Source of the DNA: Mytilus galloprovincialis
Taxonomy: Eukaryota > Mollusca > Bivalvia > Mytilida > Mytilidae
Assembly (NCBI RefSeq): GCF_965363235.1
Contig: NC_134851.1
Location: forward strand, 57,965,522 to 58,029,521
DNA length: 64,000 nt
Direction: 5' to 3'
The position numbers and the translations under genes were made by a program. The number at the start of each line of letters is the position of its first letter. Within the stretch, counting starts at the first letter, position 1. The notes beneath the pieces were generated by a model, which made no database searches, had not been told where the DNA came from, and was given only the letters and a program-made list of their open reading frames with translations. This document shows, piece by piece, positions 24,521 to 50,705 of this stretch.

Positions 24521-24894
24521 CCTTGATTTAAAAAAAAAAATATTATTAATATCTTTGTTTCGTAGTATAAACATCGAAAATAAAGTAATTTGAAAATTAA
24601 TACTTCCGTTTTATGAACAGGATTAAATACAAATATTTGAAAATAAGTACGCACAGAACGTAACACAAATTTATCTGTGATCTGACAATCTATCTAATTA
24701 TAAAAACGATCTCGGTTACAATGATAACAGGCACTGAATATATATATATTCCGAGAACAAATTCAATCATATTATGTATATTTTTGAAAAGAAGTATATT
24801 TGATGTTAGGTGTATACGTCCTTGTTAGTTATACATCCTTGAACTATGCAGCCACAATCAGCAATAGTTTAATTCAATTAAATAATGACTACAC

Positions 24895-26990
24895 ATTTGT
24901 GTTCGCCTAAATTAAGGGTGCCAGCATGTCCTCTTTTTACTCAAAATACTGATACGTAACAAAATTTCAGTAGTTTTGATGCCTCCAGTTGACTTGTACA
25001 ACAAAATTATTTGACCGCATCCACCAAAACTGACCATATATGCACTTTAATTTGTAAATCTATATACCCGCATAGTAAATCAGCCATATTTTTTATGTCA
25101 GGATTTTATGCCAGAATCAATGTATAATACAATCATGACAATGGACAGCAATATTGCAATATAATAACAACGAATTTTTGTTCGCATAAATTTAGAATTC
25201 CAGCATGTCCTCATTTTATTCAAAATATTAATACGTAACAAAATTTCAGTAGTTTTGATACCTCCTGCTGACTTGTACAACAAAATTATTTAACAGCATC
25301 CACCATAACTGACCATATGTTCACTTTAATTTGAAAATCTATATACCCGCATAGTAAATCAGTCATTTTTTTATGTCAGGATTTAATGTATAATACAATC
25401 ATGACAATGGACAGCAAAATTGCAATATAATAACAAAACATTTTGGTTCGCATAAATTAAGGATACCAGCATGTCCTCATTTTATTCAAAATATTGATAT
25501 GTAACAAAATTTCAGTAGTTTTGATACCTCCAGCTGACTTGCACAACAAAATTTTTTGAACGCATCCACCAAAACTGACCATATGTGCACTTTAAATTGA
25601 AAATTTATATACCCGGAGAGTAAACAGTCCTTTTTTTTTATGTCAGGATTTAATGTATAATACAATCATGACAATGGACAGCAATATTGCAATATAATAA
25701 CAACAAATTTTGGTTCGCATAAATTTAGAGATACCAGCATGTCCTCATTTTATTCAAAATATTGATACGTAACAAAATTTCAGTAGTTTTGATACCTCCA
25801 GCTGATTTGTACAACAAAATTATTTGACCGCATTACCAAAACTGACCATATGTGAACTTTAAATTGTAAATCTATATCCGCATAGTAAATCAGCCTGATT
25901 TTTTATGTCAGGATTCAATGTATAATACAATCATGACAATAGACAGCTATATTGCAATATAATAACAACAAATTTTTGTTCGCATAAATTTAGGATACCA
26001 GCATGTCCTCATTTTATTCAAAATATTGATACGTAACAAAATTTCAGTAGTTTTGATACCTCCAGCTGACTTGTACAACAAAATTATTTGACCGCATTAC
26101 CAAAACTGACCATAAGTGCACTTTAATTTGTAAATCTATATACACCATGACGTACCCGCATAGTATTAATCAGCCATATTTTTTATGTCAGGAATCATGC
26201 AATGTATAATACAATCATGACAATGGATAGAAAAATTGCAATATAATAACAAAGAATTTTGGTTCGCATAAATTTAGGATACCAGCATGTCCTCATTTTA
26301 TTCAAAATATTGATATGTAATAAAATTTCAGTAGTTTTGATACCTCCAGCTGACTTGTACAACAAAATTATTTGACCGCATTGCCAAAATAGACCATATG
26401 TGAACTTTAAATTGTAAATCTATTTACCAGCATAGTAAATCAGCCTTATTTTTAATGTCAGGATTCAATGTATAATACAATCATGACAATTGACAGCAAT
26501 ATTGCAATATAATAACAACAAATTTTTGTTCACATAAATTAAGAATTCCAGCATGTCCTCATTTTATTCAAAATATTGATACGTAACAAAATTTCAGTAG
26601 TTTTGATACCTCCTGCTGACTTGTACAACAAAATTATTTGACCGCATTACCAAAACTGACCATACATTTTATATGCACTTTAATTTGTAAATCTATATAC
26701 ACCATGACGTACCCGCATTGTAGTAATCAGCCATATTTTTCATTTCAGGAATCAATGTATAATATAGACATGACAATGGACAGCAATATTGCAATTTAAT
26801 AACAACAAATTTTTGTTCGCATAAATTTAGGATACCAGCGTGTCCTCCTTTTATTCAAAATATTGATACGTAACAAAATTTCAGTAGTTTTAATACCTCA
26901 TGCTGACTTGGAAAACAAAACTATTTGACCAAAACTGATCATATGTGCAACTTATTTGCAAATCTATATACCCGCATACCATTGTACCGA
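24895..26990 (+). repeat. Satellite array, eight units of about 270 bp
   Basis: The marker GCATGTCCTC begins at 24924, 25203, 25469, 25737, 26001, 26285 and 26551, and as GCGTGTCCTC at 26838. The spacings are thus 264-287 bases. Each unit also holds AACAAAATTTCAGTAGTTTT, TGACTTGTACAACAAAATTA, ATATACCCGCATAGTA and ATGACAATGGACAGCAATAT. The outermost units differ most. There is no coding capacity. Confidence 0.9.
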
Positions 26991-34847: not shown

Positions 34848-34903
34848 CTTGTACGCTTAAACAGTGTTTCGAGTACATCGCCTTGCTGGTTTAAGAACTT
34901 TCA
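34848..34903 (-). CDS. Possible last exon of the TIR-Roc-HEPN gene
   Basis: Acceptor TTTCAATTTTAG and donor-like ACAAG|GTAAGC bound 56 nt. Entering in phase 1 from the HEPN exon, it reads VKVLKPARRCTRNTV then TAA, after which an intron may follow in the 3' UTR. The only supports are the splice sites and the fitting phase. Confidence 0.4.
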
Positions 34904-37900
34904 CTAAAATTGAAATGTATAGGTCGCTCATAATTTGTGGAAACAAAGAGACCATGCAGACACTACTATTTCCGCTGGTGGTGAAAATGATCAATACAAC
35001 AAATATGTATTTCTAATTTTGTTTTTGAACATGTTTAACTTGAAAAGGAAATACTACAAAATTAGAATAAATCGCGTTGCTTAATTCTCCAAGATAGAAA
35101 GTCAAAAGTCATGTGTAAACCTATTTGACCTTGGTTTTAAAAATGAGCTACTTTCACTACCCTTCTATCCTACAAACGCAATTGCCCTTTAGTATGTTGC
35201 TTACACACTTGAAATTACCTTTAGATTCTTTGATTTGAAAGGTTTGAAAGTCTCGTTTTCTTCCCAGGTACTGTTGGAGACCAAGAAGCCTCTCCTCATA
35301 AAACGTCGCAGGTGTAAGTCGAACATCGAACCTTTTTGCAAGGGCATTCAACTTTTTCCATCTGTCGGTGAACTCAAAAATTGACATTTCGAAGTGTGAT
35401 GTATGTTGAAGCCTATTTCTGTTCAGCCGTATTCTTTCAATATCATCTCCAACATTTATTGCAACTAACTCACATGGCCAATTATCTCCGCCCCATCTCC
35501 CACGTGACGGAAGGTGTTGACCTAATCCTTGACGTCTTAATTCCCCATACAGATAAGTGATGTCACATTCATGTCTAGGTTTGGTGATTGGACATGCGCT
35601 TGAATGGGCAATATCATATAGGATGTCTGTAAGCACTTCCACCGATGCTTTGCTTACACGTATGAAATTCTGTTCTTCTTCTGAAACGGTGTCATTCTTG
35701 AAAAAAACATAATACTTATATGACATTTTACGCTGGCCAAAGTGCCTACCTTCTTAATAAATAAGCGTCAATTTTCTTAATATTTACACCTCAATGACTT
35801 TCAAATCGCTTAGTTATCTAAAGAGAGAGATACGAACGTGCTGAATTAGTAAAGTTATATTTGTATGAAGTCGTTCAGTTTCAATGCCTCATCTCTTAAC
35901 CATAGCGTATGGATTATTAACCTCAAATGAAGACTTAATCAAGATCTGACATCAGTATGCAAGCAAAACTAGACGCATTTTGCACCTCCCTATAAAGTAG
36001 TAATATTGAAAACAATGCACATATCGAGACATCACAACTTGTTTTGTTGGCCAATTTTGAAAGTGCTGTAGAACCCATACAAACATCCTGGTGTTTTATT
36101 TTATTACACTGGTATAAAATTCATACGACGAGAAACTCGATTGCAAACTTATTTCTTCAAAACAGACTAGAGCTATGAAACAGTTTTATAAACACGATAA
36201 AGAGCAAAAACCTATACAAAGAAATGTATTTAAAGCGTTGTATTATTTTAAATATGCCTCGATTATCACTGAAGAATCAATTATGGTCGAAATGTGATTC
36301 TGGTGCAGACATATTGGTACCAATAATTGTATGTTCATACATCTTTTAATTCAACAATCGGCCTGAAGCGAGTAAAAAAACGGAAAAAAAACCAAAGAAC
36401 GACGTTCATGAACGGTACTCAAACAATGAATATGCGAAATTTGAAAGGCGTGGAAAAGTGAATCTATGCAACTGAACAGCCAACATTGTAGTCTGTTTGG
36501 ACGAATACAATATTATTGTTAGCTCCATTACTTGATTAGAAACGTCAACTGTATTCACACTTGTATCTATTGAAAATGTAATTTGTTATTAATTGATATT
36601 AACTTGATTAATATAAACTAGATAAGACAAAAATAGTGGAATTCTATCTTTCAACATTTAGATTGGAACACATGGTACAGTGAATTGACGTTAACTTAAC
36701 GATATTTACCACTAACACATTCAGCATCCAATAGTGTTTGAATGGCAGGCACTGATGTATAGTGTTATGTTCTTTACACCAGTATTCTCTTGCTGGTCGA
36801 AGGCTTTCTAGGTTTATTCCCCCTTTGTTACTGGTCAAGGTGCCTTCTGGGCATTTTATCTTTATTTCGACCGTTTTCATTACATCATATTTCCTTTGAA
36901 TAACAAACATATCGTCCTCAAGGAGGCATCTGATCATCTTACCAGTATTTTCCATTCCAGAACCCCATGTCCATATTTGAGCTTGAATACTGTTTTTGTG
37001 AAAACAAAGAAGTACCTTTTCACATCCAGTATCGTCAATATCAAACAGCGCCACATCTCTGTACAGTTCACCAACATAACCGGAGGAATTGTCGGAATCA
37101 CTGGTTAGTTTGAAACGGCGAAGGAAATACACTACCACATGACAAAAAAACATTGACGGGAGAAAATCATAATCAAAGCAAACGATTGCAGATTTGGTAA
37201 AACCAATACATTTCTTACTAATTATATGCAACCCAGATGTCCGTATCATGCACGGAACGAGAAAATTAAAATCGTTGTTATACATGTCATATTTTTGGTC
37301 CAAAACATCTGCACGAACTAAGATGTCATATTTTTCCATCACGTTAAAGATATGTTTTTTGAACTCGGACAAAGAAAACTCTGTTTCTTTAAATAATAAG
37401 TCTATGAACTTCTTTTGTAAGAACCCAGTCTGTTCGTATAGTTGCCAATCCATATGTAAAAATTGTGCTTTAAACGATTTTGCGCCAACAACACAACGCA
37501 AAGCATTAGCAAACCACTGTGGACATATTATGACACTGTCACCAATATCTTCAAAAAAGATGATATTTCCGATATCATGATGTAATACTAAGAATGCAAT
37601 GAGCTCTCTAGTTCTTGAAAGAGGAGAAAGAAGCGACTTATTAACCTCACAAAGCTCATCAACGGTCACCACTGTTTTCCCTTGGATTCGCAATTCATCT
37701 ATTTTATTACTGAAAGGTATCCATTTTACTGGCACCTGTACGCCCCAATTTTCCTGTTGCTTTGCGATTGCAAATATATATTGCCGTAACTTTTCCATTT
37801 CGTCTTCAGAGGATTGCGTGTTCGATATAGCAAAAAAATTTCTTAAATGATCCTTCTGTCTGTCTGAACCTAATGACTTTACTAATGCCTCTCGGTAATC

Positions 37901-40900
37901 TTCAATATACTCTTGTACATTGCTCAGCTGAAAGAAAACAAAATATCCTGAGGTAATGACATTTTGAACTTGCTTTGGGACAATTACACACCAATACTTT
38001 ACATTTATTGCGACATTTTCATTATTGCAAAATCTCGTTGGGATAGTTATTGCAAAATAAAACCTCGCATTTTAAATTTTAATGGCATACACCATTTCCT
38101 GAAATTGCAATACTTAATCATGTTAATTTGGCAAGTGCTTCCATTGTTCAAGAACCTTAATAATAAATGTACAAACACATTTCTGAATATACAGTATAAA
38201 GGATTTCATTTTGATTATAATATGACGCCTTCTTTCGATATGAAAACAAAGCCATGTTCTTATTCCGATAAAACATAGGCTGCATGGGATTGACGTCACA
38301 ATTGAAATTTCAACGTCGGCTGTATTTTTAACAACGCCGAACATCAAAATAGACATTTGTTTTGGTGTTGGTCGCTAGGAAATTAAATGAAATCATTCTA
38401 AAAGTAAGTTTGCATATATCTGTTTATTAGTTTATCGTGAAACGGTTGGTTTTCTATAACGTTTAGGCTTCATCAATTCAAAATTGATGCCTTTTGAACG
38501 CATATTATAGGTGCGCTTCGAAGTACAGAAGTTCTTTATTGCCCTGTTAGAATCGAAATAAATCTATCATGCCATGCTCTATGCTAATTTACGTTTAATT
38601 TCATGGTATGTAAGAGAACCCTTTCCTTTTATACTTTATTAGATGTCCGAATGTAAATTATTGCAAAATAAATGTTCTGTTCCTTTTAAACATCGATTAC
38701 TACAGTTATAAGAAAAATAATAAAACATGTCAAAATTAAATAGAACGTATAAATTGTAATGCCTAACCACAACATACTGAGAGAGGATAAAGGTCGATCC
38801 ACAGTAAAATCCAGAACAGTCCAATTATTGAACAAAAAATTGAGATAAGAGGTTTGCATCCCATGTTTCGGCTTGTAAACAATGGTCATATATTTTCAAT
38901 GCAACTTAATTTGATTTTTTTACTAACATTTAAGATTAAATATATACAGTATTAAGACTGCAAAATATAAAGCCATACAGTTATTGTAAAAAATTATCAG
39001 GCTTTTCCTGTGGTTCCTAGTAAAAATAAACTCTTTTATCAATGAAGATTTAGAAGGATAGGGTTACTTGTTTCCCTATGAACTTTACCTGTATTTTATC
39101 GACGTGTGTGGCAACCGGAATGATTGGTGGGTTTAGAAATTGATCTTTATTTCTTGATATATCTCCATAACAATGAACGGTATTTGTCCAATATTGAACG
39201 TAATCTACAAAATATAAAAATATCTTGACATATGTATCAAAACTGTATGCACAATATTTTGACATTTTCTTCGAACTTTGTAAGAGTGACATTTCTCACT
39301 GTGTTTCGATTGTTCACCGAGATGTACTTGATAAGCGTCAAATAGAAAATATTTCTTTCTTATTCACGATGAGAAAAATGGCAATTAATATAATTTGAAG
39401 CTCTGTTAAGTATTGTCGACTGGCATGTAGCTAGGAATAGGTGGGTTCCAACTTGCAAATAAGTGTATGTTGGATAGGGCAGACATTTCAACATGGAACA
39501 GGCCATCCATGCACACTTCAAATATATTTTGCAGTGATATCTCAGCCTTCACGATGCGTCTGAATTATGTTGATTATCCTGATCGTACTTTATTACATCC
39601 CAACAGCCACCCATACACTCTTTTTCGAAATAATGTTAATGCGGAATGACAGTTATTTCTTTTTTTATACCGAAGACATTTCGATGGGCTTTACTTTGTT
39701 TAATTAAAGTAAAAGATTCATAACTTATAGATAAATTGTACAATTTACCTTGTACTTCTGACAGAATCTGTTTTCGTTTTGGATTGCGCTCGTACAATAC
39801 CGTTTCCTGTAATTCATTTTGATCTAATCCTTTAGAAATGTTGCTCACTAATAAGACAATGCAATTCTTTGACAGAAACAGTTGGTGAGTGGGGTAATAT
39901 TCTTGTTGACCGGCGAAGTCCCAGACTGAAATAGTTGCTGTCCTCCCGGAGTCAAAACTTTTTTCTACAGAGAGATTTTGTAAACTTTCTTTCCATGCTT
40001 CATGCTTTGCTCGTTCATTTTCAGATTCTACTAAAGATTTGATCGATCTCCCAAAATTACTTAATTTGAACAATAATTTGTCTTTTTTCATCTTCTCTTT
40101 TGATATTTCGCGCCTCAGTTTTTCAAATTCCTCCATTTCGGTAAATTTTCGGAACAAAATGGCATTGCCATTTGTTGTAAACAAATCTTTAAAAGAATAG
40201 AAATACTTGGATAGTTTCAGTTATAGATTATATGATATATGTAAACACCCTCTCAGCTATGTGTAATTTAATTTGTTATACTGGATGTGTTTGCATTATT
40301 GTCTTTTACTGTTAGATTTCAAATTCAAGTACATTTGACGTCGGGTAAATAGCAACGGTACAGTTAGTAGAACAGCAACATCTAGAATTGTCTGCACGAG
40401 AGGGTAACATTCCAAAATTTGTCCCCCGATGAGCTATGGGATAGAGTATATAACCCCCTTCGTAGTAGCCAATCAAAATATTGCATTTTGACGTGAAGTA
40501 CAATACTATAAATTATTTGTAGGATTGTAGGAGGTACATGGTAAATAATACATACTAATAGTTATCTGTCGTTCAGTATATTTAAATAGCATGATGATGG
40601 TATCTGAATATAACACTGTTCCCCTAAATTGTAGCACCACATGTAGACTAAAGTCTATTGTACAATTTATTAAATAAAAATCACCAAAGGAGAACACAAA
40701 TTCATTACAGGTTTTGCTGGCTAGTTAACCACGTGTTAAAAGGATGATAAATGTATTCAGAAAAGGAGACTGTATGGCTATTTTGAATATGTTAAAAAGT
40801 ACATTTAATTGTAAATATTCTAGCCTCAGTTATTTCATATCAGTTCATTTGTTTGCATTTTGTTACTTTAAATTATATAATCTAAATATAGTAATTGACT

Positions 40901-43900
40901 AATAGGAACCTCAGAAGATGTTTTACTGATCTGCATTGTTCTTCTTTTTTTTTTTTTAAAGAATATGATCTGCAAACTGTATTTATATTATTGAAAAAAG
41001 GCATCACAAAGTATGCAATGTGGTACCCTAAAGTACGTGATCATTATCACGCTGTGTTGAATGTTTTTTTTTGTTTCAGGTCAATAACAGATAGTTTTAA
41101 AACACAAGGGAGACAACGCATGGAAACTTCACTGAGGTTATTTTTTAACAAAATGTTTCAGTATGTAAAATAAATCAAATATAATGTTAAATACATATAA
41201 AATATATTGTTATGTTGAAGCTTGGTGCATCTTTTATTTTTATTTGCAGACTCAGAGATGTAGATATAAATGGCTGCTCCAATTCCCCCTCCCCAAGTAA
41301 ATCCACATGCCTTGTTACCTAAGTGCAAAAAGTTTGTCGATTTTGCTGTGTTAAATTTGAAATTAAAACAAATATAAGACCGCTATTCTTATTATTATAG
41401 ATAACAAAACGAATAAACTTCATATAAGAATAAACGTCATTAACATCATTAAAAACATGATGTCATACGAATGAAAACTTTCAAACTGAATGTTGTTCCG
41501 TTCGTGTACACTCCAAGTAACGATAACATTGCATTCAAATGGAATTTTAAGTAAGTGTTGTTTTATTTCTTCTTTTTTTTTTGCATTTTTGGCACATTTA
41601 TTATTTCAGCAAGTCAACATGGCGGCTCAATCCTAAGTTACGACATGTCAAATGTGGATTTGACGGTAAATAGTTGCCAATGAAAAATAAATGCTAGGGT
41701 GTAGAATCATATGGAGTAAACACATTTGTTCTAGAGGTTATTTGAAAAACAATTCACACAAGCCATATATTCATCGGATATTTTGAGCTTTATCTTACAG
41801 AGGGTAGTATAGAACAGCCACAAATACGCACATTTATTTTCGCGTCAGTTTTTACCGTTTTTACATATTAGATTCGAAATAATTCATGCAAGTTTTAGAT
41901 ATGTTTTCATTTTCATATTGCGTAGACTGGTATTTTTGTTAATTGTATCCCCCTCAAACGCTCCGAATAAAATTTGAATATAACAGCTGAGGCCATTTGA
42001 AAATGTTTATCAAATTTATGACTTTCGTGAATTATTTCTTTACCAACATTGAATATTTGTATTAAATAACCAAATTTTATTATTTTAAGTTTTTTATATA
42101 GACTAGACCGTGGGTTTTCCCGTTTGAATGGTTTTACACTAGTCTAGTAATTTTAGAACCCTTTATAGCTTGCTGTTCAGTTTGAGCCAATGCTCCGTGT
42201 TGAAGGCCGTACATTGACCTATAATTATAATGGTTTACTTTTATAAATTGTTATTTGGATGGAGAGTTGTCTCATTGGCACTCACAACACATCTTCCTAT
42301 ATCTATAAAACAAAATTAGTCACATTGAGATTCAACCGAAGTGCAACAAATAGTTCCGATTATACAAGCAATAAATATCATACTAGATCATTTCGATATC
42401 ATACTTCATGTACATGTAAATGTAGTATACAATTTTAATTGTGTCTGTTTTTTAAGAATCAAATTGAAATCTTATTTGCAAGAAAAGCTAGAGTCGTCGT
42501 AAGTATTGTACATTCCTTCCAAAAAATAACAGATAACAGATAACGAGTACCTTTGTGAAACTGCCATTCACCAGTACGTAAAGAGATGCCATATTTGTTG
42601 ACATTAATTTCAATTCCATTTGTGCTCTTCACTTGAGATATGCTTTCTTGTAGAAGTCTTCGGACTAAACTGGTTTTACCAACCCCTTCTTGTCCGAGGA
42701 CGACAAGTCGTATGTAATATAACTCCTCCGATTTGGTTTCTACTAGTCTTTTGTATAAATCTATGCCTTTTCTGCACTCACTAAACAACTTTTGTGGAGG
42801 CTGCAGATTAACCAATCTAGAAAAAGCTAATGATACACAAGTATAAAATTGAACTTAGATCTTTTCAAAGAGATATGCATTTTATATAAAGTATAACAAA
42901 GATATGTATCCTTGATTAAAATACAAACAAATGTTACTTAAGGACGTATACCTCTGAGAAGCCAAACATTTCTAGAAATAAACGTTTTTTCTTAACCTGA
43001 TTTTTGGGTTTATAAGACTATAACCAAAACAATTGGTTAAAAAACATCATATGGCGGTGCACTTCTTTTTTTGCTACGGCCCTTTGAAAATGCCCAATTT
43101 TGATGATTTTCCCTTTTTCATCGATTTTTACCTATTTTTGGGCCCTAATCGGGGGAAAAAATGACATTTCCACAATTAAACTTTTCTTCATACTTTCTGT
43201 AAAGATGGAGTGGACCGATCTGAATAAATATTACTTACAAAAACAATAGGGAGGTGTTAATATAAGAAAGTTTTATCATATTTTGATGCTTTTTGGTGTA
43301 AAATTTTCCATGCTGTCAATTTTGTAATTTTGTAATTTTTTCTCAGATTTAAGAACAAAATGCATATAATTTCAACTTTTTTGTTATAAATGATTAAAAA
43401 AATACATATCTAAGAAATTTGAAAAGATCAAAATGATATGGGATGTACATGATTATTGTAAAATCATTTTTTGTATCCCTCACCAATTTCCTCAAAATTT
43501 TGGCTAAAAAAACTGACTTGATTTAAATTTAAAATATGATATACAGAGGGATTAGGTGAGGATTGTAGTCATACGATCGACGATTTAGAGAAAAAAAAAT
43601 GACGACACGTACCTATTTGTTCATTCCGATCCTTTAATCTCCTGTTTTCAACTTCTAAATCATTTTCAGTCAAATCTGAAATTAAATGCATTGTAAAAGT
43701 AATCGATTTTAGAAATTATTTCATGATTTAAAATGCTATTTTGTTCGTTCTGTGTATAAAGTGATAATGTCACTAATCAACTGATACATGCATATCCTAA
43801 TTAATCTGTAGAAAATGAATAGATATTGCCATAGTATAAACCAGTACTTTAAACGCGTGCGTGTTTCATAATACAAAATTATCACAAATGCCACTTGAAA

Positions 43901-46466
43901 CAAACGGGTAAAAAACAAATGAAAAAAGAGGGTTAGGAACGATTATCCCTTTACCTGTTTCATGCAAATCGCTACAATATTGTTGTTATATTTCTCTTAT
44001 AAATATCGATTGCATTCTGTTCTGGGGAAGATTTGTTCGGTTGCTTTTTATTTATGTCATTCAATGATACTTTGAGGCCGCAAATACAATATGCTAAATA
44101 TCCAAAAAAAGCACATATGGTGTCGTGCAATCCTATTTAACGCCTGTAACTGCTTCTGTTGAAAGAAAAGAGCAACTTCGACCGCAAACAAATTCTAAAT
44201 TTTCAGTAAAATTCATAAAAATAAAATGCTAAAAAATGCTCTACGTTCTTTAGAATATCTTGATTATGAAACATTATGTGCTTTTGTTAATTGTTCAGCA
44301 GAACTACTCAAATGTTAACCTTAATCCCCCAAGAACTGCACCTTGATATTGACTGCAATAACATATATCAATGTATTATTTTGCTGATGAATACAAGCAA
44401 AAGACATAGTAAAAGTCAGAAAATAGGGAAAACAAATCAAAGTTAAAAATACTATCATATAATGGTCTTTGTTCTGACGAAGTTTGTGTCTATGAATCGA
44501 AAAGATCCGTTGAGGGAAAACAACGTTAACTCTAGACTGTATCTAAATATTAGTAAACTGAATTCGTATCCAATTCAACATCTTTATTGATATATAAATA
44601 ATGTCGGAATAAGGGATCTATCAGTGTAGCCTCTATGAATTCCGAGGCAGGCGGGTGAAAAGTTAATAAAATACCTGTGCCAGTAAGAATCTTCAAAATC
44701 TGTTGATATGCCCTTTCTTCATAATGTTTCTTTACAGTTATTCGACTGAATGATTTAAAAAATCTTAAATGTTCGGCAAGTATCGGCTTAACTTCTAAAA
44801 CAATGAGCTTGAAATATTGATTCCCAAGTTGGATTTGTTTTCCTACTTCGATTGTAAATTTTGCCATGGCATCATTGAAGAAGGAATTGTCATACACTAT
44901 GATTAAAGAACCTGTTAAACGCATTTGTCTTTCTATTTCATCTACAATTATTGACCCACTTTCCATATCTCTTAAGTCGCAGAAGAAGCTGTATCCGATG
45001 CACTCAAACCTGTCCAAAAATGAACGGAGAAATGCTAAAGATTCCGATGCACACACTGCTACGTAAGCCTGGTAAAAATACACCAATGAGTGTATATACT
45101 CGCAGGCATATTCTGAAAAAAAGAAATGTTGCATTAGAAACTTGAGCATTTTGTATATTACAACATCGAAACAAACTTAAAACAGGATAACAAATATACC
45201 GAACTCCGAGATTAACTAAAAAAGAGGAAGTTTATAAAAATTGATCAAATGCAACGTTAGACTATATCAACCAAAGGAATGAATGGAACACAACTGTAAT
45301 ATTTCTGACTTGGTACAGGCATTTTCCGACAAAAATGGTGTGTAAACCCTTATTTTATAACTAGTTAAACCTCCACTGCAATGATAGTTCCTCATAATTC
45401 CGTTATATTGACAAACATTGATGAGGACAAAAAAAAGACATGAAACTACAATTAGCTTGAAGTTTTGCTTTTTAAGGACTGAAAACCTGAGAGTTCAGTT
45501 TCTAGTTTCAAAGTTATTTACATCAACTACTTCCATAAATTATTAAAGTTTGTCTTCTTAAATTTAATCACTTTCACATAGTTGGGACTCTGAATGTACA
45601 GGTTACCAAATAAAGCAGTCACATCTTATATTGTCAGCTCTTTATCTGTTCCCCTACAATACATATTAAGAGGCAAAAGAAAGAATTAGTATTCTTTAAT
45701 TACACAGTATAAGAAATTAACATTATTGATGCGTCTATAATAAATCTGCGTAAAGCAAGTTTGTTTGTAAAAAGGCAATATAATATAAATAACACATAGC
45801 TGAGAGCATGCAGAGGGTGGTGGAGAAGATTGTAAATCCGAGAAAACATTGTCAACTGAAGCTAAGGTTGACAGTTTCTTTGTGAGGGGTAAACAATCTT
45901 CTCTATCACCCTCTATATATATGGGTTATTCAATTCAATTTACATGTATTCTTTATCTTACAGATTAGACACGTAGCCTGGCTTAAATGCCCCAAAACTA
46001 TAAAAACGTCATTTTAAAGAAAAGATGAAGACATATATAATTAACAATAGATACCTTTTGTAGGACCCCTCTTCAAATAGTCAAGTATTTCTGGCATTTT
46101 GCATGAAAAATCTGATGACAGTTCATATGTTTCATATTGTTTTAGATCTTCTGGAACCAAGCAATTATTCAAACGAAAGATGTAAGGTAGAAAGTATCCA
46201 TGTCTGCTTGCAGAAGTATGTCGAACAATGTCTATACACCAATCTAACCAGTGATTTCTATAATCATTTTCGGATGAAATCCAAATGATGTAATACTCTG
46301 AATCGGTTACCTTTTTGGCAAGTGAATCCTGGATATCCCAATCAGGTGTAAAACATAAGTTATTGCAACAGTTATATCCCTCTTGTTTAAGTAAGTGAGT
46401 AAAAGTTAAAAACGACCGATCATCTTTACCAATATGTATGACGAAGAAATCAAATGGAAACAATTC
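34848..46466 (-). CDS. Multidomain TIR-TIR-Roc-COR-HEPN protein (spliced, nine exons seen)
   Basis: Exons on the minus strand, 5' to 3': 46055-46466, 44675-45112, 43613-43675, 42551-42816, 39749-40187, 39089-39204, 36710-37927, 35219-35696, 34848-34903. Phases agree at every join except coiled coil to Roc. The chain is TIR, MyD88-like TIR, a short coiled coil, Roc GTPase (P-loop GQEGVGKTS, switch STNGIEI, DFAGQ, THVDK), COR, and a DZIP3-like HEPN domain with RNRLQH. From family knowledge, TIR domains assemble signalling complexes or cleave NAD, Roc-COR is a GTP-driven dimer switch, and HEPN domains are often RNases. I infer a cytosolic innate-immune or cell-death protein. No leucine-rich repeats, transmembrane segment or kinase domain was found. 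The start codon exon is missing. It could also be two adjacent genes (TIR-TIR and Roc-COR-HEPN). Confidence 0.75.
35219..35696 (-). CDS. Exon: HEPN (DZIP3-like) domain
   Basis: Acceptor TTTTTTTCAAG and donor CTAAAG|GTAATT; phase 0 in and 1 out. It matches a bivalve family I know next to DZIP3-type HEPN domains: EQNFIRVSKASVEVLTDIL, then HECDITYLYGELRRQGLGQ, RGRWGGDNW, GDDIERIRLNRNRLQHTSHF, and WKKLNALAKRFD. The motif R-N-R-L-Q-H (35403-35420) is R-x4-H with Asn after Arg, the form seen in active HEPN RNases. Without splicing the frame would run on to a stop at 35157-35159. Confidence 0.8.
36710..37927 (-). CDS. Exon: COR domain
   Basis: A large exon (1218 nt, phase 0 in and out). Acceptor TTTTCTTTCAG, donor TTAGTG|GTAAAT. 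It begins LSNVQEYIEDYREAL, where the Roc C-terminal helix ends, then carries the COR mark VPVKWIPFSNKIDELRIQGK, a winged-helix part (LIAFLVLHHDIGNIIFFED, then VIICPQWFANALRCVVG), and a second lobe with FDYDFLPSMFFCHVVVYFLR and VALFDIDDTGCEKVLL. COR follows Roc in all Roco proteins and makes the dimer. The frames on the plus strand over 36896-37850 are shadows. Confidence 0.85.
39089..39204 (-). CDS. Exon: Roc GTPase, G4 (THVDK)
   Basis: Acceptor TATATTTTGTAG and donor ACAG|GTAAAG; 116 nt, phase 1 in and 0 out. It reads DYVQYWTNTVHCYGDISRN, then NPPIIPVATHVDKIQ. The pattern (I/V)PVxTHxDK is the guanine-specificity motif of Roc domains. Confidence 0.85.
39749..40187 (-). CDS. Exon: Roc GTPase, helical insert and G3 (DFAGQ)
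   Basis: Acceptor TTCTTTTAAAG and donor CAAG|GTAAAT; 439 nt, phase 1 in and out. After NGNAILFRKF it holds a long charged helix (MEEFEKLRREISKEKMKKDK and on), then TATISVWDFAGQQEYYPTHQ, the G3/switch II of Roc with a Phe-Ala form of DxxG, and NCIVLLVSNISKGLDQNELQ. The stretch between switch I and DFAGQ is around 100 residues, longer than in most Roc domains, and is probably a coiled-coil insert. Confidence 0.85.
40188..42550. repeat. Intron within the Roc domain; holds a dispersed mussel repeat
   Basis: At 42085-42310 lies 'TAGACTAGACCGTGGGTTTTCCC ... GTTGAAGGCCGTACATTGACC ... GAGAGTTGTCTCATTGGCAC', a full copy of the GGCCGTAC family. The plus-strand open frame 40895-41173 and minus-strand frames at 40312-40697 show no domain or splice support. 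Confidence 0.6.
42551..42816 (-). CDS. Exon: Roc GTPase, G1 and switch I
   Basis: Acceptor GCTTTTTCTAG and donor CAAAG|GTACTC; 266 nt, one base in and phase 1 out. A basic lead-in (LFSECRKGIDLYKRLVETKS) is followed by the strand YYIRLVVLGQ and P-loop EGVGKTSLVRRLL, and then the switch I signature KSTNGIEINV. These are the marks of Roc (Ras of complex proteins) domains, as in LRRK, MFHAS1 and the bivalve Roco proteins. Confidence 0.85.
42817..43612. other. Intron before the Roc exon
   Basis: From about 42945 to 43560 the base use differs from the flanks (long A and T runs, ACGTATACCTCTGAGAAG at the start, ATACAGAGGGATTAGG at the end). It may be an inserted repeat, but I could not show matching ends. 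Confidence 0.3.
43613..43675 (-). CDS. Exon: short coiled-coil linker
   Basis: A 63-nt exon between a good acceptor (TTTAATTTCAG) and a good donor (AATAG|GTACGT). It reads DLTENDLEVENRRLKDRN plus EQIG, a heptad-like, strongly charged helix. The phase matches the TIR exon upstream (1 to 1). The main donor leaves in phase 1, but the Roc exon needs phase 2. The weaker donor GTAC|GTGTCG four bases on would fit. This is the least certain exon of the gene. Confidence 0.5.
44675..45112 (-). CDS. Exon: second TIR domain, MyD88-like
   Basis: Acceptor TTTTTTTCAG and donor CACAG|GTATTT; 438 nt, phase 1 in and 1 out. By eye it follows MyD88's TIR: a first strand (YQAYVAVCASES), box 2-like CDLRDMESGS (compare SDRDVLPGT), then GSLIIVYDNSFF followed by AKFTIEV (compare VVVVSDDYL ... 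TKFALSL), then a hydrophobic strand FKLIVLEVKP. Read past the donor, the frame stays open to 44550, but no further domain appears, so splicing at CACAG|GTATTT is preferred because it links in phase to the next exon. Confidence 0.8.
45170..46054. repeat. Intron between the TIR exons; holds a dispersed repeat
   Basis: 45175-45430 is a diverged copy of the mussel repeat at 15630 (TACCGAACTCCGAG, GACTTGGTACAGGCATTTTC, TAGTTAAACCTCC). Around 45795-45925 GGTGGTGGAGAAGATTGT faces an inverted partner (ACAATCTTCTCTATCACCC), suggesting a small fold-back element. Confidence 0.5.
46055..46466 (-). CDS. Exon: first TIR domain
   Basis: Acceptor GCCATTTCAG and donor AAAAG|GTATCT; 412 nt, phase 0 in and 1 out. 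It encodes a whole TIR fold: strand A (FDFFVIHIGKDD), a Cys-rich helix/BB-loop part (YNCCNNLCFTPDWDIQDS), strand C (SEYYIIWISSEN), then NHWLDWCIDIV and a late strand (GYFLPYIF). Where NAD-cleaving TIRs such as SARM1 have a catalytic Glu after the W, I see no Glu, so a scaffold role is more likely. The exon does not start with Met, so at least one 5' exon lies upstream beyond 46466. Confidence 0.85.
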
Positions 46467-48764: not shown

Positions 48765-49360
48765 AAATGTTGGGGAAATTTCCCAAAATATATGATAGTT
48801 TTAAAATATTTGTGGTAAAAATGTATATGACAGCTATTTATTTGGGAAATGTCCCGAAATCATTTTCAACATTAAATTTTATGACATATATATTTTGGCA
48901 AAGCATTTTAACAAACAGACCTGAAACACATTTCGGGAAATATCCCGACAAAAATAAACTAAGTACAAAATGTATAACACAGATGTCTTCAAATATTTCG
49001 GGATTTATCCCGAAGATATGAAATGTATATGCTAGATCTCATGACTAATAATTTCTTTTCACATTTCGGGAAAAATCCCGAAAATATAAAACTAATATCA
49101 GACACACACTTGGTGCATAGATTTTATTTACCCACTTCGGGAAAAATCCCGAAAATTAAATCTACAAGCAAAAATTATGCATTTTGATTTCTTTTTACCC
49201 ATTTCGGGAAAAATCCCGAAATAAAATCTACAAGCAAAAATTGTGCATTTTGATTTCTTTTTACCCATTTCGGGAAAAATCCCGAATAAAAATCTACAAG
49301 CAAAAATTATGCAAATTTTGATTTCTTGAAACAATATTGGGAAAAATCCTGAAAAAAAAA
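48765..49360 (+). repeat. Hairpin minisatellite, nine units of about 66-72 bp
   Basis: Each unit is centred on a perfect or near-perfect palindrome of the form TTTCGGGAAAAATCCCGAAA. It appears near 48773, 48843, 48930, 48995, 49064, 49136, 49202, 49268 and 49338. The last units share CTACAAGCAAAAATT.TGCATTTTGATTTC between hairpins and are nearly identical, while the first units are degenerate. The minus-strand frame 49128-49334 reads as a repeat peptide (FGIFPEMGKKKSKC...) only because of the array. Confidence 0.85.
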
Positions 49361-50239: not shown

Positions 50240-50705
50240 AGTTATAAAAGGACATAACTGAAGAACAGTAAAAGTGACTCTACCAAAAACACTTGATCTG
50301 ATTTAGTGGTAATATGTATTGTGTATAAGTTCCATAAAACTTGGTTTATGCAAACTTAATTTAGAGATTGGAAACAAAAATTCAGCAATTTTTCCATTTT
50401 CAAAGGGGCATAACTCTAGAAAATTTAGTGACAACCTCAAAGTTCAAACTTGATTTGTATTTTGTGGTAATAAGTATTGTTTAAAATATCATAGCATTTG
50501 GTTGAGGCAAGCTAAAGTTAATGAATGGAAATGAAAATTTCAGCAATCATTCAATTTGTGAAGAGGCATAATTCTAGAAAAGTTAAAGTGACCCCCTTAA
50601 AATTCAAACTTGATCTGTATTTTGTGGTAACAAGCATTGTGTATAAGTTTCATTGCATTTAGTTGAGGCAAACCAATGTTAGAGAATGGAAACTACAAAT
50701 ATAAG
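50240..50705 (+). repeat. Tandem repeat, three units of about 155 bp
   Basis: The words GGCATAA(C/T)TCTAGAAAA, TTCAAACTTGAT.TGTATTTTGTGGTAA and GTTGAGGCAA.C recur at about 50300, 50450 and 50600. It abuts the AGCTCACCTG repeat, with which it is often found in mussel DNA. Confidence 0.7.

Follow-up and report, generated by a model that had tools for sequence, protein, structure and literature searches.

The locus described here raises the question of whether a row of exons in a mussel genome encodes a single protein that joins TIR domains, a GTPase switch and a possible ribonuclease (RNase), and what such a protein might do. The window, that is, the whole 64,000-base stretch analysed (Mytilus galloprovincialis, contig NC_134851.1, positions 57,965,522 to 58,029,521), is part of the contig referred to below as C14, in a genome of 1.38 Gb. 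Between positions 46466 and 34848 of the window, nine minus-strand exons splice into one open frame of 1161 amino acids, and the same domain order of TIR, TIR, Roc, COR and HEPN recurs at three further loci of C14, which are named by position as the 58.95, 64.5 and 65.19 Mb copies.

Gene structure in the window

From front to back, the frame encodes a TIR-like domain followed by a TIR domain, a linker of 21 residues, Roc (split among three exons), COR and HEPN, and it closes with a short tail whose exon contains the stop codon. The exons are as follows.

46055-46466, minus strand: exon 1, TIR1, a diverged TIR-like domain; phase 0 in, phase 1 out; weak match to Pfam TIR_2; homologous exon at the three other C14 loci
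44675-45112, minus strand: exon 2, TIR2, with a BB-loop-like RD-x3-G and T in the alphaC-glutamate column; homologous exon at the three other C14 loci
43613-43675, minus strand: exon 3, charged linker of 21 residues joining TIR2 to Roc; both borders in phase 1
42551-42826, minus strand: exon 4, Roc-1, with P-loop GQEGVGKTS and switch I STNGIEI; acceptor moved from 42816 to 42826
39749-40186, minus strand: exon 5, Roc-2, with the Roc insert and switch II DFAGQ
39089-39204, minus strand: exon 6, Roc-3, with the G4 motif THVDK
36710-37927, minus strand: exon 7, COR (COR-A); phase 0 out; donor position shared with the other three copies
35219-35696, minus strand: exon 8, HEPN, with the RNRLQH (R-x4-H) motif
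34848-34903, minus strand: exon 9, short tail VKVLKPARRCTRNTV; stop TAA at 34859-34857, then a donor; exon, stop and donor recur at the three further C14 loci

A preliminary description of this DNA had placed the five domains in this order on one strand, which was confirmed, and all four Roc motifs that it named (GQEGVGKTS, STNGIEI, DFAGQ and THVDK) lie in the open frame. It had counted matching splice phases at seven of the eight joins; the frame is indeed continuous, and with the Roc-1 acceptor at 42826 all eight joins are in phase. A TTAG acceptor lies at the matching distance from conserved residues in the 58.95 and 65.19 Mb copies. The acceptor at 42816 was dropped because it produces the sole phase mismatch, while 42826 is in phase and placed as in these two paralogues. 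The gene span formerly given, 46466 to 34848, stands as regards the exon end, but coding stops at 34857; position 34848 marks a donor nine bases past the stop codon, common to the three other copies. Such a donor after the stop, in the window and in all three paralogues, suggests that the window gene probably has an intron in its 3' untranslated part.

When the joined frame was compared with Pfam, Roc scored 52.7 bits over two stretches (cut-off 27), TIR_2 36.6 bits (cut-off 28; a whole-protein score with its best stretch in TIR2) and COR-A 30.5 bits (cut-off 35.3), and at E up to 0.01 neither HEPN nor a separate first TIR was listed. As the window's own scores are low, the weak domains (TIR1, COR and HEPN) were examined through their copies. 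The NLR hallmark, NACHT or NB-ARC, was not found in the 1161-residue frame at E up to 0.01; LRR, the ectodomain repeat of Toll-like receptors, was not matched in it by Pfam either, nor were ankyrin, kinase and WD40 domains.

One gene or two

An exon-by-exon search of the whole genome recovered three more C14 loci with TIR1, TIR2, Roc, COR and HEPN in the same order and on one strand, the four copies lying up to about 7 Mb apart.

C14, 58.947-58.958 Mb: copy open and in phase, with a third TIR exon
C14, 64.513-64.538 Mb: copy partly read
C14, 65.184-65.198 Mb: copy that looks decayed

Identity to the window is 79-82% in COR and 86-91% in HEPN, with 53-60% in TIR1 and 46-54% in TIR2. In the 58.95 Mb copy the three TIR exons, the linker, Roc and COR are all open and in phase; a phase-0 acceptor is present for HEPN, whose exon begins about nine residues later than that of the window. 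The TIR2, linker, Roc-1, Roc-3 and COR exons are equal in length in this copy and in the window (438, 63, 276, 116 and 1218 nt). In all four copies a phase-1 donor closes TIR2, the COR donor occupies the same place and the tail exon, stop included, has been kept. Of the three other copies, two yielded the linker exon, at 58.95 Mb (63 nt, in phase) and 65.19 Mb (67 nt, same borders, frame broken); in the 64.5 Mb copy the linker and Roc-1 were not found in the parts read, outside which lie 2.1 kb between TIR2 and Roc-2. Near and 5' of TIR1 the exons align between copies and the flanks hardly do so, and downstream of HEPN some intron pieces align, most of them between the 64.5 and 65.19 Mb copies.

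The retention among paralogues of the linker, the splice borders, the phases and the tail exon supports a single gene encoding TIR-TIR-Roc-COR-HEPN. That two adjacent genes, one for TIR-TIR and one for Roc-COR-HEPN, have been misread as one might be suspected from the many loci at which Roc-COR-HEPN occurs without a detected related TIR. This appears very improbable in view of the TIR2 phase-1 donor in four copies, the linker exon retained with its phase-1 borders at 58.95 Mb, and the TIR2-Roc interval, which keeps its order and strand in all four widely spaced copies. Because it sits between TIR2 and Roc, the linker exon carries more weight against two genes than any other one observation.

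The extra front TIR exon (TIR0) of the 58.95 Mb copy lies at C14:58957763-58957340 (L073). Like the window's TIR1 it enters in phase 0, and an in-phase third TIR of this kind suggests that TIR exons are gained or lost in tandem.

The 65.19 Mb copy (L080, C14:65187900-65193150) looks to be decaying, or wrongly assembled, since a TGA interrupts Roc-2 and the linker exon measures 67 nt where the window has 63; its COR and HEPN are nevertheless at a low ratio of nonsynonymous to synonymous substitution rates (dN/dS). The state of this sister copy could lead one to ask whether the window copy is itself a pseudogene or an assembly mosaic. This is scarcely credible, as the window is open over all 1161 amino acids with every join in phase, and it shares the low COR and HEPN dN/dS with the other copies.

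Roc and COR domains

The G1, G3 and G4 motifs of Roc are intact in frame (GQEGVGKTS, DFAGQ and THVDK, respectively), and the Pfam score is above the Roc cut-off. The switch II stretch matches Roc structures of LRRK2 (E about 1e-7) and the Roco protein of Chlorobium tepidum (3dpu, E 5e-4).

COR follows directly after Roc, as had been proposed. The window exon by itself matches COR-A at E 8.9e-8 and 32.6 bits, slightly below the cut-off of 35.3, so that the COR assignment draws on the family: of the 21 members scanned, which were the window plus 20 of the 29 further COR loci, 20 matched COR-A at E up to 0.01, with a best value of 2.8e-16.

HEPN domain

The preliminary description had called the C-terminal domain a DZIP3-like HEPN. 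The window exon alone scores 16.6 bits against PF18738 (HEPN_DZIP3), short of the cut-off of 27, and the assignment leans on the family, with PF18738 matched in 25 of 29 members at E up to 0.1 (best 3e-6). When the Roco-linked HEPN profile was aligned by hhalign with six PF18738 hits of the same genome (six of eight loci extracted from 150 PF18738 rows), the match was 96% with E 3.3e-9.

An R-x4-6-H motif with a polar residue after R has been described as the RNase site of the HEPN superfamily (Anantharaman and colleagues, PMC3710099; this and the other publications cited are represented here by excerpts), and in the pearl oyster the motif is kept in 194 of 202 such HEPN proteins (PMC9646362). 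The window sequence RNRLQH has this form, including the N, D or H expected after R. R93, N94, Q97 and H98 are invariant in all 29 HEPN rows, giving R-N-x-x-Q-H; these rows are the window and 28 of 30 extracted loci (L039 is the window itself and L051 has an internal TAG), taken from the best of 78 matches. Three more distant loci also retain the R and the H, namely L038 (RSEILH), L017 (RNDMAH) and L020 (RNEMQH).

Whether the domain still cuts RNA can nonetheless be asked. HEPN may have ceased to cut and may instead bind RNA or a partner, the protein being a Roco-gated TIR adaptor that feeds a Toll or MyD88-like pathway. ROCO domains in TLR, MyD88 and TIR proteins of Aplysia have been put forward as markers of a GTPase Toll cascade (PMC9334734), which would suit such an adaptor, as would two related Roco loci of the mussel, L031 and L032, whose HEPN-like stretch 3' of COR is without the R-x4-H motif and which are possibly a non-cutting branch. 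However, the motif R, N and H are invariant in the 29 nearest family rows (the best of 78), R and H persist in the distant L038, L017 and L020, and the dN/dS of HEPN is only 0.15. An adaptor with an inactive HEPN is thus considered unlikely.

A Roco-HEPN family across the genome

The HEPN query found at least 78 genomic places and the COR query at least 103 rows, two of which are pieces of one place; scoring covered 102 of 408 candidates for COR, 150 of 158 for HEPN and 150 of 416 for Roc, so that the counts are lower bounds. On its own strand and no more than 45 kb upstream, a Roc or COR match accompanies 58 of the 78 listed HEPN places. Four have such a match downstream on that strand, and none has one on the opposite strand. 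When each HEPN place was shifted locally by 60 kb to 1.5 Mb in 1000 control trials, the mean was 3.1 of 78 and the maximum 9. (The neighbour tally used 148 Roc rows, one of which, at position 8814889, was entered as C8 instead of C14; no HEPN row is near either place.) Given 58 of 78 places against a mean of 3.1 on shifting, Roc-COR-HEPN is a large gene family in the M. galloprovincialis genome, with members, among the matches listed, on C1, C4-C8 and C11-C14.

In a tree of 30 COR sequences (the window and all 29 other COR loci), the four TIR-bearing loci form one cluster (100/100) adjoining two C13 loci near 61.7 Mb (100/99) that also carry HEPN; these neighbours, at 61.70 and 61.74 Mb, are their nearest relatives in the tree. 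HEPN-linked rows are spread over several deep branches. Eight rows were labelled as having no HEPN on the basis of the HEPN search, and two of them, L031 and L032, later gave the weak HEPN-like stretch noted above.

None of the other 87 rows of the TIR1 and TIR2 searches lies within 100 kb of a listed COR or HEPN row. The same holds for the Pfam TIR_2 rows, a silence that means little, since these were the best 150 of 648 candidates and the window's own TIRs were not among them. Since, among the matches listed, TIRs come this close to COR or HEPN rows only at the four loci, the TIR pair seems to have been added to a Roc-COR-HEPN gene that already existed.

A Death domain was the nearest match downstream, on the same strand and within 45 kb, for seven of the 148 Roc rows, and for none upstream or on the opposite strand (Death list: best 150 of 217 candidates). 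Death is perhaps a second C-terminal output of Roco proteins in this genome. Near the window gene there was no Death match among the matches listed.

TIR domains

Two TIR domains had been proposed, and these fare differently by profile. TIR2 matches PF01582 in all four copies (best E 4.9e-9; the window copy is at the cut-off, with 21.3 bits), and its profile aligns with TIR-STING, TLR5 and TLR2 in the PDB; it is, on this profile evidence, a genuine TIR. TIR1 matches Pfam TIR_2 at E 2e-4 and 22.3 bits, below the cut-off of 28, and only one of its five copies matches at E up to 0.1. Against the PDB the TIR1 profile gave weak matches, to designed Rossmann-like chains (E 0.09-0.4) and to TIR-STING (E 0.5), and the TIR1 and TIR2 profiles show no clear match to each other (6%). 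TIR1 is therefore doubtful by profile and is termed TIR-like in this work for its place, its length and its weak profile match.

The alphaC glutamate of TIR domains is the catalytic residue for NADase activity. In a weak alignment, the corresponding column of TIR2 is occupied by T in the window and by K, E and T in the other copies, and in TIR1 the region of this glutamate is unconserved. With T in that column of the window's TIR2, NADase activity of these domains appears unlikely.

Selection

Values of dN/dS were calculated by the Nei-Gojobori method with bootstrap ranges, from three to five sequences per domain. The back end of the protein is strongly constrained, with 0.17 (0.13-0.22) for COR and 0.15 (0.09-0.22) for HEPN; Roc-2 gave 0.33 (0.22-0.50; three copies, the 65.19 Mb copy being left out). 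TIR1 gave 0.51 (0.37-0.65; five exons including TIR0 of the 58.95 Mb copy) and TIR2 0.64 (0.46-0.87), so that within the same gene the ratio rises three- to fourfold from the back end to the front end. The dS ranged from 0.41 (HEPN) to 0.73 (TIR1). Change in TIR1 is concentrated in columns 31-60 and 71-100 of the alignment; in these two patches the proportion of nonsynonymous differences (pN) is near that of synonymous differences (pS), and the adjoining stretches are nearly fixed. In a placement that was not computed, the patches would be the BB-loop and alphaC faces used in TIR pairing.

As no domain has a dN/dS above 1, relaxed constraint on the TIRs, instead of adaptation, is possible. Taken further, the TIRs may be losing their role, with constraint relaxed once Roc-COR-HEPN had become the working part and no sensing through TIR at all. 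The weak TIR character of TIR1 (one of five copies matching Pfam), the ratios of 0.51 and 0.64 and an alphaC glutamate column that is not retained would all agree with this. It is nevertheless quite unlikely, because all four copies retain open TIR1 and TIR2 exons at a pairwise dS of about 0.5 to 1.1 and the 58.95 Mb copy carries an in-phase third TIR. Even decay of TIR1 is also disfavoured by the fixed stretches that adjoin its two variable patches.

Proposed function

KEN-type HEPN RNases work as paired domains. The reading preferred here, which is put forward tentatively and with somewhat less than even confidence, is that one gene encodes a Roco-type protein with a C-terminal HEPN RNase as its output and an N-terminal pair of TIR-type domains, acting in the following way. 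The TIR pair would serve as the input, by contact with a second TIR protein or with a TIR ligand in assembled form, and would recruit or cluster the protein without acting as an NADase. The Roc-COR unit would pair two chains in a nucleotide-dependent manner, as in the bacterial Roco protein of C. tepidum, and the pairing of chains would join two HEPN domains so that an RNase site is formed or exposed. Cutting of RNA might then limit virus growth or kill the cell. Through their changing TIR surfaces the copies may differ in their triggers or partners, the switch and the RNase remaining constant. The preliminary description had already proposed one chain with TIR assembly, a GTP gate and a HEPN output; the single gene, the intact GTPase motifs and the invariant RNase motif add to that proposal, and it is still the best reading.

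Several observations weigh against this reading. At the front end, TIR1 is barely recognisable as a TIR, the TIR ratios are below 1, and the set from which the TIR1 ratio was obtained takes in the additional TIR0. At the back end, the window COR and HEPN exons are singly below their Pfam cut-offs, the 29 HEPN rows are the top-scoring of 78 and hence biased toward conservation, and L031 and L032 carry a HEPN-like stretch that is without the motif. Single-sequence AlphaFold models were too poor to be informative (pLDDT, the predicted local distance difference test score, of 42 for HEPN and 50 for TIR2). With respect to the gene, one of the three other copies looks decayed and another was read only in part, and within the stretches compared there was no start codon or convincing upstream first exon common to the copies. 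Finally, the Roc-COR of the C. tepidum Roco protein is mostly dimeric in the nucleotide-free and GDP-bound states and monomeric when GTP is bound (PMC5714945); as GTP gives monomers there, the direction of gating in the mussel protein could run either way.

A wider proposal would be that bivalves possess a whole class of GTP-gated Roco-HEPN RNases that fill the role of RNase L in vertebrates, with a conserved switch and RNase behind exchangeable front ends. The tandem, fast-changing TIR pair of the four C14 loci would be one such front end, and a receptor for assembled or foreign TIRs. We regard this as rather doubtful.

If the proposed Roco-gated RNase is real, Roco would join NACHT among the nucleotide switches linked to HEPN RNases in animal immunity, and the Roco mechanism of the Parkinson-related LRRK2 would be tied to the cutting of RNA. 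It would also provide a test case for receptor variation in bivalves, which are without antibodies, with a constant switch and RNase and a changing TIR surface. The sizes of the protein are suited to production and assay.

Remainder of the window

Upstream of the gene, two tandem arrays occupy 49120-49359 (66-base unit, 3.6 copies) and 50291-50693 (158-base unit, 2.5 copies), and a third lies at 24882-26978 (266-base unit, 7.7 copies, 86% matches). The window outside 34848-46466 holds no RNA family at gathering score, no tRNA and no stop-to-stop frame of at least 160 amino acids, smaller exons of other genes not having been sought.

Comparison with known systems

The exact order TIR-TIR-Roc-COR-HEPN had been taken to be undescribed, and this fits the open-licence literature as excerpted, in which no description of Roc-COR joined to HEPN was found; TIR-Roc-COR is, however, known from Aplysia (PMC9334734). 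The component domains are thus of known kinds, and it is their combination, together with the larger Roco-HEPN family, for which no description was found; the function is what we infer. Roco-HEPN fusions may be present unremarked in the protein databases of other molluscs.

The TIR-ROCO proteins of Aplysia californica resemble the window protein in being molluscan and in uniting TIR, Roc and COR, their function being unknown, and differ in the LRR, Death, Mbt, EF-hand and Neuralized repeats alongside; in the excerpted text, the one protein credited with HEPN is a NACHT protein (PMC9334734). An N-terminal TIR is found on ROCO proteins of some organisms, and a TPR-ROCO-TIR arrangement in a red alga (PMC11378527).

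With the DZIP3/hRUL138-like HEPN proteins (PF18738) the window protein probably shares the HEPN family; common to both are the R-x4-6-H motif, expansion in bivalves and fusion to a nucleoside triphosphate (NTP) switch in immune-type proteins (PMC3710099, PMC9646362, PMC8260672). HEPN-NACHT proteins are known from bivalves and cnidarians (PMC9646362, PMC8260672), the HEPN_DZIP3 family has expanded in a clam (PMC11592408), and oyster HEPN occurs with Ig and DED-TRADD-N (PMC8195603). The partners given in the excerpted row for DZIP3 HEPN are TPR, Zn-ribbon, RING, ankyrin, CARD, NACHT, Death and LRR, with Roc-COR and TIR not in that row, and a TIR-HEPN fusion is tabulated there for one bacterium with another HEPN family, DUF4145 (PMC3710099). 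The window protein is unlike the DZIP3 type in that its switch is Roc-COR, with HEPN at the C-terminus and TIR at the N-terminus.

Bacterial AP-GTPase-COR conflict proteins are joined to other effectors, the output being GT4 compared with HEPN here (PMC8195603). With the Roco family, such as LRRK2 and the C. tepidum Roco protein, the window protein shares intact Roc G motifs followed by COR, and it differs from that family in a frame without matched LRR, ankyrin, kinase or WD40 and in having HEPN as its output.

RNase L and Ire1 each have a sensor end, a nucleotide-binding middle and a paired C-terminal RNase. No homology to them is claimed beyond the HEPN superfamily, and the likeness would be one of analogy, not of membership: the mussel protein may likewise combine a sensor, a nucleotide-binding middle and a C-terminal HEPN-superfamily RNase that is expected to need pairing. 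The KEN domain has itself been placed in the HEPN superfamily (PMC3710099).

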